Shown piece after piece: positions 8,439-34,068 of a stretch of DNA of 64,000 nt. Under the pieces are notes generated by a model that saw only the letters and a list, made by a program, of their open reading frames with translations, had not been told where the DNA came from and made no database searches. Source of the stretch: Planctomycetota bacterium (lineage in GTDB: Bacteria; Planctomycetota; Planctomycetia; Pirellulales; Pirellulaceae); the NCBI GenBank assembly GCA_016872725.1, contig VGZC01000005.1, forward strand, positions 62,001 through 126,000, in the 5' to 3' direction. Positions within the stretch are counted from its first letter, which is position 1. The number at the start of each line of letters is the position of its first letter. A program made the position numbers and the translations under genes.

Positions 8439-10613
8439 TCACGAGCCGGGAAGCCAGAGTTTCGAGGGTGCGCCTGCCGTCGAAGGTTGCGGCGCCGGCC
8501 GGTCGGGAGTCCAGATCGCGCCGGTACCGTCCGACGGTCCTCGCGAGGCCTGGTCCATGGTTCGGGCGATCTCCGGAACGAGCGGCCGTCCCGACTCGTC
8601 CATGAAACCCATCGCCTGCAGGCGCATGGCGACCAAATGCATGATGGACTGGTTGCCCCGATAGGTCGTCATGATCTCTTGAAGCCGTTCAATGGCGGCG
8701 GCCGGACGCCTCGCGCGGATCAGCGTATCGAATAATTGCAGCTTCCATAGGCCGACCACGTCGGCCGGCTCGCCGGGCCTCGACGCGATCGCCCGTTCGA
8801 GCAGATCGATGCGCATGGTCGGACTCGTCGCCGCGATGGCCGCTTGCATCACCAAGGTGCGCGTTTCGTTCGTGTTGGGGAGCCGTTCCCGGTCCAGGAC
8901 TTCCATCACCAAACGAACGGCCGCCGGCGGCACGCAATAGCTCGCCGCCGCCGCCGAGAATTCGAGAAGCTCCGGATCCGAGCACTTCTTGGGGTCGACG
9001 CGCGCGAGCGCGGTCAAGCCGAGTTCCTCGAACGGCGGGTAGCGGTTGCCGTCCGCCGCGGAGTCCTTCGCCAAGTCGCGGCGAAGCCCCAACCGTTCCC
9101 AAAGTCCGGTGAAATCGCCGGTCCACTCGCTCCCGGGCGCCGTCGTTTCGAGGAGGAGCAACACGGCGGTCAGCGGAATGCGCCATTCCGGCGTTCCGAC
9201 CAGTTCGATCGGCCGTTTGCCGTCCAAGTAGGGGTGTCGCTGGTCCGGCCACCCGCGCACCCCTTCGTCGATCAGCGCGTTGTGGAGCGTCGGAACGTCG
9301 AACGACGTGGCACCCCGGAAATAGCGATCGCGGATCAGGCCGTTTCCGATCGGAAGGATCACGTCCGTCGTTTGCTCGTCCGTTTGCGGTCCGATGAGTC
9401 CGCTTGGAAATGACGCGGCGATCGCGGCGCCCGCCTTGTTGTTCTGGTCCTCCGCGATCTGAATCATCATGCGCGCGGCGCGATCGGTTTGGCGGCCGAA
9501 CACGACGATCGAGCCGATCAGGATCGGCAGCTCGCCCAGATCCAGGCCGTTCATGTCGACGGGTATCGGTCGATCGCAAACATGGTACGCGGCCTTGGGA
9601 GGCGGTTCGCCTTCCTCGGCCAACAGCCTCGGATCCTCGGCGAGTACGGCGAATCGCCGGTCCGAGGCGAGATACTCGATCAGCCGGTCCACGTCGGCCA
9701 CCTCGAACTCGCGCAAAACCAACATCCGATCGAATTCAAAATCCGTGGTGCCGTGGTACTTCGCGAGCAGGAACGCGTCGACCGCGAGGCACTCGGGCGC
9801 CTCGGCCATTTGCGCGACTTCGCGGAATCGAGCGGCGGCGTCGGCGAATCGGCCAAGGCAGACTTCGGTCAGGCCCGTGAAGAAACGGGCGTACGGGTTA
9901 CGGGGCTCCCGATCCTGAAGGGCGATCGACTCGCCGCGAAGTTCCCGGAATCGGCACATGATGAATCGCGGAAGCCAATCCGCGATCGCCGCCAACGCGG
10001 GTTGTTCGCACAACCGTTCGACAAAGAACTCGTTGATGACGGGCGGCTTGTTAGAGTCCGTTTGAATCTCACGGAGGATGTTCAGTACGCGTTCATTCGC
10101 GCCGCGCAATTGGCCCTCGGGCGTTGTTCGCTGCTGAATGTAGCAGCGCGCGTACATCATCGCGGCGAACACGGCGCCGTTCGAGAAGCAACTGAAGATG
10201 ACCGCTTCCAGCGCCCAGGAGATGAGATAGCTGATCCCCATGGGGGACCGCTCGAACGCGTCCTGGAGAAGGTCGATCGCGGCGTGTGAGTCGCCCTCGG
10301 AGGCCGAAATCAGGGCGAGCGCCGCGTGTCCGTTGGGGTGTTTCGGCGCCACGGCCCGAAGATGGTTGGCGAGTTCCGCGATTCGGTCCAACTCGCCCAT
10401 TTCGAACAGCAGGTGGAGCTGAAGCGTGAGGAAGCAGGCTTGATTCGGATTCCGGACCAGGATCCGTTCGCACGCGTCCAACGCGGCAGCCCGCTGCTCC
10501 CCGTCGATCAGGCCCAGAACCCGTTCAAAATCAGCGTGGAGTTCCTTCGGGCAGCAGAACTTGTATTTTTCCCCCGAACCACACGGGCAGGGGGCATAGG
10601 CGTCCAGAGCCAT
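8439..10613 (-). CDS. SEC-C motif protein with TPR-like helical repeats
   Basis: A 724-residue cytoplasmic protein. Residues 9-21 are a SEC-C zinc motif (CPCGSGEKYKFCC), the same metal-binding element found at the C-terminus of SecA. Most of the rest is helical and reads like TPR repeats (for example HPNGHAALALISASEGDSHAAIDLLQDAFE near residues 95-125). The ATG at 10613 is chosen because AAGGAG lies about eight bases upstream and the SEC-C motif then starts at the extreme N-terminus; an upstream extension exists but lacks such support. It is the first gene of the operon with ribD and uvrA. Proteins of this layout are recurrent in planctomycetes; their function is not established, and I do not assign one. 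Confidence 0.8.
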   Translation of the reverse strand: MALDAYAPCPCGSGEKYKFCCPKELHADFERVLGLIDGEQRAAALDACERILVRNPNQACFLTLQLHLLFEMGELDRIAELANHLRAVAPKHPNGHAALALISASEGDSHAAIDLLQDAFERSPMGISYLISWALEAVIFSCFSNGAVFAAMMYARCYIQQRTTPEGQLRGANERVLNILREIQTDSNKPPVINEFFVERLCEQPALAAIADWLPRFIMCRFRELRGESIALQDREPRNPYARFFTGLTEVCLGRFADAAARFREVAQMAEAPECLAVDAFLLAKYHGTTDFEFDRMLVLREFEVADVDRLIEYLASDRRFAVLAEDPRLLAEEGEPPPKAAYHVCDRPIPVDMNGLDLGELPILIGSIVVFGRQTDRAARMMIQIAEDQNNKAGAAIAASFPSGLIGPQTDEQTTDVILPIGNGLIRDRYFRGATSFDVPTLHNALIDEGVRGWPDQRHPYLDGKRPIELVGTPEWRIPLTAVLLLLETTAPGSEWTGDFTGLWERLGLRRDLAKDSAADGNRYPPFEELGLTALARVDPKKCSDPELLEFSAAAASYCVPPAAVRLVMEVLDRERLPNTNETRTLVMQAAIAATSPTMRIDLLERAIASRPGEPADVVGLWKLQLFDTLIRARRPAAAIERLQEIMTTYRGNQSIMHLVAMRLQAMGFMDESGRPLVPEIARTMDQASRGPSDGTGAIWTPDRPAPQPSTAGAPSKLWLPGS

Positions 10614-10764: not shown

Positions 10765-11122
10765 TAGGACCGGCAGGATTCGAACCTGCAACCAAGGGAT
10801 TATGCGTGCCACTTCGGCTTTCGCCGCCCCTTTCGAGTTCGTGGTCTGGACCATCCCTTCGCTTTACGCGTCTGCCGTCTGGTCTCTACACCTTCCGCCG
10901 CGCGGCGGCTTGGCTCGGGATTGGCCTGGCTCGATCGAGCGGTAGCGTTCCCCGAGTTTGGCAGATTCTACCGATGGCCTCGACGTTCGGCGTCCTGGCC
11001 GGACGCCGCGCGAAACGAAGCCGTCGGCAACCCGTCGAGGCGCGCCGTGCGGAACGCGGAAACGCGTTCCGGGTAGGCGATCCCCAAGAAGTCCCCTGCT
11101 CTAACCGTTGAGCTACGGTCCC
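10765..11122 (-). tRNA. trnI-CAU: tRNA-Ile(CAU), interrupted by a group I intron
   Basis: The two exons (11122-11090 and 10804-10765) join to a 73-nt cloverleaf: acceptor GGGACCG with CGGTCCT (G1-U72 wobble, discriminator A), D arm GCTC/GAGC, anticodon stem GGGGA/TCCCT, loop CTCATAA, T arm GCAGG-TTCGAAT-CCTGC. CCA is not encoded. The anticodon arm and flanks closely match the known minor isoleucine tRNA (tRNA-Ile2) of bacteria, whose C34 is changed to lysidine by TilS so that it reads AUA. Among the possible splice frames only the one giving CAU leaves an intron ending in G, as group I introns require. The gene would be the source of AUA decoding and therefore essential if single-copy. Confidence 0.92.
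10805..11089 (-). ncRNA. Group I self-splicing intron in tRNA-Ile(CAU)
   Basis: A 285-nt intron without an open reading frame, inserted between U33 and C34. Core helices can be paired by eye: P3 (10960-10965 with 10871-10876, UCUGCC/GGCAGA), P4 (10951-10956 with 10914-10919, CUCGGG/CCCGAG), P7 (10880-10884 with 10849-10853, GACCA/UGGUC), a short P6, P8 and a P9 hairpin capped by GAAA. A nine-base-pair hairpin at 11050-11071 fits P2. Conserved stretches such as GAAGGTGTAGAGAC and CCGAGCCAAGC match, from memory, the Azoarcus tRNA-Ile intron, with compensatory changes in P4 and P7. The last base is G, as required. P1 is less clear: GACU at the exon end can pair with GGAUC in the intron if one A bulges. 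Subgroup IC3 is likely by resemblance. Confidence 0.92.
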
Positions 11123-33985: not shown

Positions 33986-33990
33986 TCCTC

Positions 33991-34068
33991 GATAAGGGCA
34001 AACCGGTCGAAAGGCCGGGGCGCAAAGCCATGGGCCGACGACCGTCGGTCGCCAGGCTGCCGAAAGGG
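33991..34068 (+). promoter_or_regulatory. Class I cyclic-di-GMP riboswitch (GEMM-I)
   Basis: The conserved blocks of the GEMM-I aptamer are all present in order: AAGGGCAAACC, a GAAA-capped stem (CCGGUC/GGCCGG), GGGGCGCAAAGCC, a variable stem (GACGACC region), and the receptor side GCCAGGCUGCCG. Known class I aptamers bind cyclic di-GMP between these helices. The outer P1 helix is short here (GGCA/UGCC). The next gene, 215 bases downstream, is the Flp pilin, so the switch most likely sets pilus expression according to cyclic di-GMP. ON or OFF polarity cannot be read directly; the strong hairpin at 34081-34110 is the probable output element. Confidence 0.85.

Follow-up and report, generated by a model that had tools for sequence, protein, structure and literature searches.

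The introns of bacterial tRNAs belong to subgroup IC3 of the group I introns, and the one that interrupts tRNA-Ile in Azoarcus is, we take it, inserted between U36 and A37 (U36/A37). Most bacterial and plastid tRNA introns lie just 3' of the anticodon, according to the pertinent section of a review (PMC4033280). The intron in the initiator tRNA-fMet gene of Synechocystis is listed with a PD-(D/E)XK endonuclease gene located in its P1 element (PMC3073962), and the passage on hidden tRNAs in the description of tRNAscan-SE 2.0 mentions 36 genomes in which a group I intron conceals an fMet or Ile2 gene, Acidovorax and Burkholderia being named for Ile2 (PMC8450103).

The locus described here lies in a 64-kb stretch of planctomycete DNA, probably of the Pirellulaceae (the window, at its full length). 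It resembles the tRNAscan-SE 2.0 cases in that a group I intron hides a gene of the fMet/Ile2 kind; the passage on those cases is silent about where the introns are inserted and mentions no Planctomycetota (PMC8450103). A search by title and beginning of the abstract, covering few subscription papers, returned neither introns between U33 and C34 (U33/C34) in tRNA-Ile nor group I introns in planctomycete tRNAs. The kind of intron is known; the lineage to which this one belongs, its range across phyla, the matching of its guide to exon base 31 and a proposed contact in its P1 extension appear undescribed as far as the literature was searched. We consider it highly probable that the sole tRNA-Ile(CAU) gene found in this genome carries a group I intron at U33/C34 that splices to restore the AUA-reading tRNA. 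From the position and structure of the intron, covariation, P1 pairing, intact homologues, the lack of a second gene and the presence of TilS, all read at the sequence level, we infer self-splicing, the order of its steps, the essentiality of the process and the modification that would follow it.

The interrupted gene and its splice sites

The initial annotation had read this region as a tRNA-Ile(CAU) with a complete cloverleaf, split between U33 and C34 by a group I intron with P3, P4 and P7 helices, a GAAA-capped P9 and a terminal G. Each of these elements was recovered, and P9 proved to carry two GAAA-capped hairpins. The features are:

11090 to 11122, minus strand: tRNA-Ile(CAU) 5' exon, nucleotides 1-33, ending in GGGGACU33 (ARAGORN and intact homologue L053)
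10805 to 11089, minus strand: group I intron, 285 nt, with the omega-G at 10805 (ARAGORN intron mode, covariance models)
11035 to 11087, minus strand: P1 extension hairpin with an internal loop at the position of the relatives' tetraloop receptor, here degenerate (CCUACC, 11077-11072, opposite GCACGG, 11050-11045)
11029 to 11033, minus strand: internal guide GGGUU, pairing with G30 A31 C32 U33 and, across the splice site, U+1 to form P1, with a U33·G wobble at the splice site (53 introns, fold)
10970 to 11028, minus strand: P2, extended (single-sequence fold)
10960 to 10965, minus strand: P3 5' strand UCUGCC, partner 10871-10876 (6 pairs, 100% of cells paired, 3 changed on both sides)
10951 to 10956, minus strand: P4 5' strand, partner 10914-10919 (one pair alternates between G-C, 20 introns, and U-A, 19)
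10924 to 10946, minus strand: P5 and P5a (of the helices, P5a is least often paired, 75% of cells)
10895 to 10908, minus strand: P6 (core alignment)
10880 to 10884, minus strand: P7 5' strand GACCA, partner UGGUC 10849-10853 (100% of cells paired, 2 pairs changed on both sides)
10860 to 10870, minus strand: P8, short (core alignment)
10809 to 10844, minus strand: P9 base stem around P9a (GAAA, 10828-10837) and P9b (GAAA, 10815-10826) (core alignment)
10765 to 10804, minus strand: tRNA-Ile(CAU) 3' exon, beginning C34 A35 U36 (ARAGORN and intact homologue L053)

In its normal mode ARAGORN finds no tRNA in the 64-kb window; in intron mode it sets the boundaries as ggact, a 285-nt intron and cataa, and from the exons, once joined, it builds a cloverleaf whose anticodon is CAU. 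The joined exons are identical at 73 of 73 positions to an uninterrupted tRNA (L053) from another genus of the same family, retrieved by BLAST among 60 related genomes. When the boundaries are slid by up to 6 bases in either direction, only U33/C34 leaves a U at the end of the first exon and a G at the end of the intron, the latter being the terminal guanosine expected of group I introns.

Splice sites elsewhere, for instance at U36/A37 with another anticodon, are what ARAGORN gives for many relatives: among the matches listed from the genome scan described below, it gives a different intron position for 23 of 36 U33/C34 tRNAs, calling the wrong amino acid in 22 of them, with intron bases taken as the anticodon, and the right amino acid with the wrong site in one more. 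Its site was overruled where a nearby one leaves a U before the intron, a G at the intron end and CAUAA thereafter. For the window such a displacement is almost certainly wrong, given the outcome of sliding the boundaries and the fit of both the P1 pairing and the intact homologues to U33/C34. The comparison exposes an annotation error in the intron mode of ARAGORN for tRNAs split at this position.

A covariance-model search, suggested by the initial annotation, gave a divided answer. RF00028 recognizes the intron region on the correct strand with 25.6 bits (E 1.9e-4 in a search of 601 bases) and misses its gathering score of 50; over the whole genome it has no match at E <= 0.001, and Rfam at gathering scores reports no intron anywhere in the window. 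A model made from 11 initiator-tRNA introns alone, with the window intron excluded, has a single match in the 64 kb at E <= 10, and this match, with 116.3 bits (E 1.6e-30), bears out the group I assignment together with the core helices and their P7 pseudoknot. This separate model was made because a larger set of 39 U33/C34 introns already includes the window intron. As a side observation on the tRNA itself, its pair 1-72 is G·U, as it is, by eye, in 13 of the 14 uninterrupted homologues shown from the same family.

Relatives of the intron and the core tree

BLAST of the 60 related genomes yielded two related introns (L051 and L052), both again at U33/C34, in tRNAs for which ARAGORN calls Leu(UAA) and Gln(UUG). 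When GTDB genomes were scanned with a 22-base block of the intron core, which favours close matches to that block, at least 120 stretches were returned. Among the matches listed, ARAGORN resolves 111 of 120 as intron-bearing tRNAs, which we read as CAU tRNAs split at U33/C34 (36) or at U36/A37 (32), tRNA-Arg split at position 36 (24), tRNA-Leu split at position 34 (7), and 12 left unassigned; the 32 U36/A37 cases comprise, by record title, 31 Pseudomonadota and 1 member of the Chloroflexota. A covariance model built from 39 U33/C34 introns (R1) was run on 241 genomes of the window's family and matches 21. Nineteen of these matches resolve to U33/C34, 17 of them in Ile2 and 2 in initiator tRNAs, and no tRNA was seen at the two remaining, weak matches (33 bits). 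In a sample of the phylum, 10 of 392 genomes match R1. Four of these matches are the window genome itself, an initiator tRNA split at U33/C34 (L221), a tRNA-Asn split at U33/G34 (L225) and L222; the other six, all from a single further family, are partial and can be read as tRNAs only with uncertainty. The tRNA-Asn(GUU) case comes from the same class as the window genome and its intron matches weakly (40 bits); since it sits at U33/G34, the U33 site may not be confined to CAU tRNAs.

At least 53 distinct introns at U33/C34 of CAU tRNAs were collected, 39 from non-initiator and 14 from initiator tRNAs, and all 14 of the collected fMet introns occupy this site. Among the 39, 29 have A at exon base 31 and resemble the window's Ile2, and 10 have G31 (3 from Chloroflexota and 5 from candidate phyla by title) and may be Ile2 or elongator Met. 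On these counts the U33/C34 site is neither unusual nor unique, and the predicted introns form a widespread, little-noticed lineage that occurs in several phyla. Three of the CAU-tRNA introns (L086, L111, L136) are 615-651 nt long and have P1 loops of about 400 nt with starts that look alike; none contains a long ORF under table 11.

The same 22-base core was also matched 74 times in 73 IMG/VR contigs (L231-L303), whose phage status is that given by IMG/VR. ARAGORN places 66 of the 74 matches in intron-bearing tRNAs, of which 42 are tRNA-Leu(UAA) split at U34/A35 and 8 are CAU tRNAs split at U36/A37; none of the 66 resolved tRNA introns is a CAU U33/C34 intron (8 matches were unresolved), and no phage carrier was found among these viral contigs. 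In a viral contig of 94.5 kb (L281), roughly 0.6 kb separates two intron-bearing tRNA genes that are read as CAU and Leu(UAA). The phage introns seen by 2014 all lay in protein genes, according to a review of that year (PMC3984707).

A tree of 116 intron cores, computed with P1, P2 and P9a left out and rooted at its midpoint, contains a bipartition with support 98/100 that sets 53 U33/C34 introns, 3 Arg and 2 Leu introns against 32 U36/A37 CAU introns, 21 Arg and 5 Leu introns; it should be noted that the bootstrap was unsettled and that some long branches meet. The 29 Ile2 introns with A31 (21 Planctomycetota, 8 Pseudomonadota) group together with support 99/97, nested in a larger assemblage (96/88) to which three initiator introns also belong, and the nearest rows to the window intron are the planctomycete Ile2 introns L154, L163 and L193. 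In AU tests a single clade was not rejected for the Ile2 introns (p 0.235) or the fMet introns (p 0.307) at position 33, and p was 0.052 for the Ile2 introns at position 36. By its site, its covariation with exon base 31 and its place in the tree, the window intron is classed as a member of the U33/C34 CAU-tRNA lineage.

The initial annotation had compared the intron with that of Azoarcus while noting that the latter follows the anticodon, and this last point holds, since 32 of the 111 tRNAs among the matches listed are CAU tRNAs split at U36/A37. Azoarcus-type introns reside in the same tRNA, have the P7/P3 core block in common with the window intron and are likewise short and without an ORF. 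They differ in their U36/A37 site (32 collected) and lie on the opposite side of the core tree; read from the collected sequences, they have the guide GUG and no P9a, whereas the window intron has GGGUU and a GAAA-capped P9a and lacks the traits that define the Azoarcus type. The common tRNA and the common 22-base core block might be explained by an Azoarcus-type intron whose splice site has moved three bases upstream. Such a shift is extremely unlikely: the 53 U33/C34 and the 32 U36/A37 CAU introns fall on opposite sides of the tree, the guide, the P1 extension and P9a differ, and U33/C34 introns occur in initiator tRNAs as well. The view of the window intron as an Azoarcus variant is accordingly given up, because the core tree separates the two lineages and puts the window intron in one half with the introns of initiator tRNA-fMet at this site.

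Those fMet introns lead to the intron of Synechocystis PCC 6803, known here by its description as a CAU-tRNA intron with an endonuclease gene (I-Ssp6803I) in P1. Five collected initiator introns (L129, L145, L152, L217, L221) carry ORFs in their P1 loops that look similar by eye, and that of L129, the one used in a search, matches PDB entry 2ost_A (E 5.2e-48), which we take to be I-Ssp6803I. The window intron differs from the fMet introns in its Ile2 isoacceptor, in having no ORF, in its guide (GGGUU instead of GGGC), and in its long P1 extension and GAAA-capped P9a. It has no PD-(D/E)XK endonuclease gene in P1, since its 56-nt P1 loop is too short for one.

Ribozyme core, guide and P1 extension

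The window intron has the P3-P4-P6-P7-P8 core of a group I intron, with P7 pseudoknotted with P3. Across 39 introns, the window's included, 95.8% of the cells in the 41 named core pairs from P3 to P9, P7 pseudoknot among them, are paired. Changes on both sides occur in 28 of the 41 pairs, against a mean of 20.3 after shuffling and 9-17 when the partners are slid by 1-3 columns. A plain minimum-free-energy fold of the entire intron misses some core helices, as is expected because of the pseudoknot, and P5 of the window copy departs, by eye, from that of its relatives.

The guide is located 57-61 nt into the intron, just before P2 and behind the 53-nt P1 extension; a guide near the start of the intron had been considered as well, and no consistent pairing was seen there. 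Chosen with the exon known, the guide forms standard pairs with bases +1, 33 and 31 in 53 of 53 collected introns, with base 32 in 52 and with base 30 in 49. When it is picked without regard to the exon, by taking the last GGG(C/T) in the 30-75 nt before P3, it is GGGT in 28 of 29 introns with A31 and GGGC in 24 of 24 with G31. Exon base 31 covaries with the guide (A31 with GGGUU, G31 with GGGC), which fixes the predicted 5' splice site. Folded without constraints, the final six bases of the exon together with the 5' part of the intron yield exactly the same P1 in the window, with the U·G wobble between splice site and guide that is expected of group I introns. P10 is weak; 34 of the 53 introns, though not that of the window, could form a second P10 pair. 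The collected introns form a natural series with one ribozyme core, two tRNAs and a one-base change in the guide, and guide retargeting is directly testable because one core serves two tRNAs through that change.

Among the 45 introns with a P1 loop shorter than 110 nt, P9a is capped by GAAA in 30. The motif CUAA(A/G), which we assume to be the 5' half of the 11-nt GAAA tetraloop receptor, is present in the P1 loop of 26 of these 30 and in 0 of the 15 others (Fisher 1.1e-8), both the motif and the test having been picked after inspection of the data. The association is also seen within the non-initiator introns (26 of 30 versus 0 of 6, Fisher 1.1e-4). In 20 of the 26 introns with the 5' receptor half there is, in addition, a fitting 3' half with both flanking pairs, and shuffled P1 loops contain the motif in a mean of 3.2 and a maximum of 10 of 30 introns (2000 draws). 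Corrected for kinship, the association comes down to 3 independent pairs on well-supported branches (5 on all branches), with p 0.25 in a sign test. Eight introns with P1 loops of at least 400 nt were left out of this count; two of them have a GAAA P9a, L111 without the motif and L136 with it. We tentatively suggest, on few independent events, that the GAAA-capped P9a may dock into a receptor in the P1 extension. A literature search of limited coverage returned no paper that mentions both the GAAA tetraloop receptor and the P1 extension of a group I intron. The putative contact would allow a new peripheral architecture to be tested by simple mutations.

The window copy is one of the four introns that have a GAAA P9a and no receptor motif (CCUACC/GCACGG in its place). 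Because this motif and P5 depart from those of the relatives, the window copy may splice less well or need a protein.

A broader scenario, to which we give about an even chance, is that this lineage kept its position in the anticodon loop while passing between tRNA-fMet and tRNA-Ile2, its guide being adapted each time to exon base 31, and that the Ile2 branch lost the endonuclease and gained a GAAA-capped P9a that docks into an 11-nt receptor in the P1 extension. Many bacteria would then depend on a ribozyme for AUA decoding, largely unseen because gene finders can take the first intron bases as the anticodon.

Probable splicing and the decoding of AUA

Decoding of AUA normally needs tRNA-Ile2 together with TilS. 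The window genome has 47 tRNAs at the Rfam cut-off, and the CAU genes among them are an elongator Met (L012) and an initiator (L037), the latter with a 1-72 mismatch and A11-U24. The interrupted gene is a third CAU tRNA beside these two, as expected of tRNA-Ile2, and the genome also encodes TilS (163.5 bits against a cut-off of 93.6). Among the 671 Ile codons of 27 long ORFs, chosen mechanically within the window, 21 are AUA. The initial annotation had named a second, uninterrupted tRNA-Ile(CAU) gene as the finding that would make the interrupted one dispensable. None was found among the 47 tRNAs (assembly of 100 contigs, completeness 95.8%), and with the intact tRNA as query the genome gave four matches, namely the two halves of the intron locus and two weak, partial ones to other tRNAs. 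An uninterrupted copy was seen in 0 of the 17 family genomes with an Ile2 intron (76-100% complete, window genome included) versus 3 of 3 intron-less controls.

Given that a further Ile(CAU) gene was looked for and not found, that the genome has TilS and that AUA codons occur, splicing is presumably essential for the reading of AUA in this host, which agrees with the dependence on splicing that had been proposed at the outset. AUA decoding here seems to require a ribozyme too, lodged in the single copy of the gene that was found, and the same applies to all 17 family genomes that have the Ile2 intron. The interrupted gene might instead be a dying relic whose intron no longer splices, with AUA read by another tRNA missing from the assembly. 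The draft nature of the assembly, from which a second gene could be absent, the loss of the consensus receptor motif in the window copy and the rarity of AUA would all suit such a relic; the exons identical to those of an intact homologue, the intact core helices and the lack of a second copy in all 17 family genomes speak against it, and we regard it as very unlikely. The group I intron at this locus is real and very likely functional, and the tRNA that it interrupts looks essential.

If the intron does splice, it would fold after transcription, and the guide GGGUU would form P1 by pairing with bases 30-33 of the exon and base +1 of the intron; in this helix the U33·G wobble would mark the 5' splice site. 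A guanosine bound in P7 would attack after U33; U33 would then attack after the terminal G and join C34, restoring the CAU anticodon loop. TilS could thereafter modify C34, so that the tRNA would read AUA as isoleucine.

Two minor observations concern the surroundings of the locus. The product of the gene 3' of the tRNA (window 8439-10613, minus strand) has a SEC-C motif at its N-terminus (CPCGSGEKYKFCC); used as the single marker of a shared neighbourhood, such a downstream SEC-C motif gene was absent from all 24 other loci that could be oriented out of 26 tried. The sole match in the window at Rfam gathering scores is a c-di-GMP-I-GGC riboswitch aptamer at 33988-34065 on the plus strand, with 73.3 bits against a gathering score of 59.
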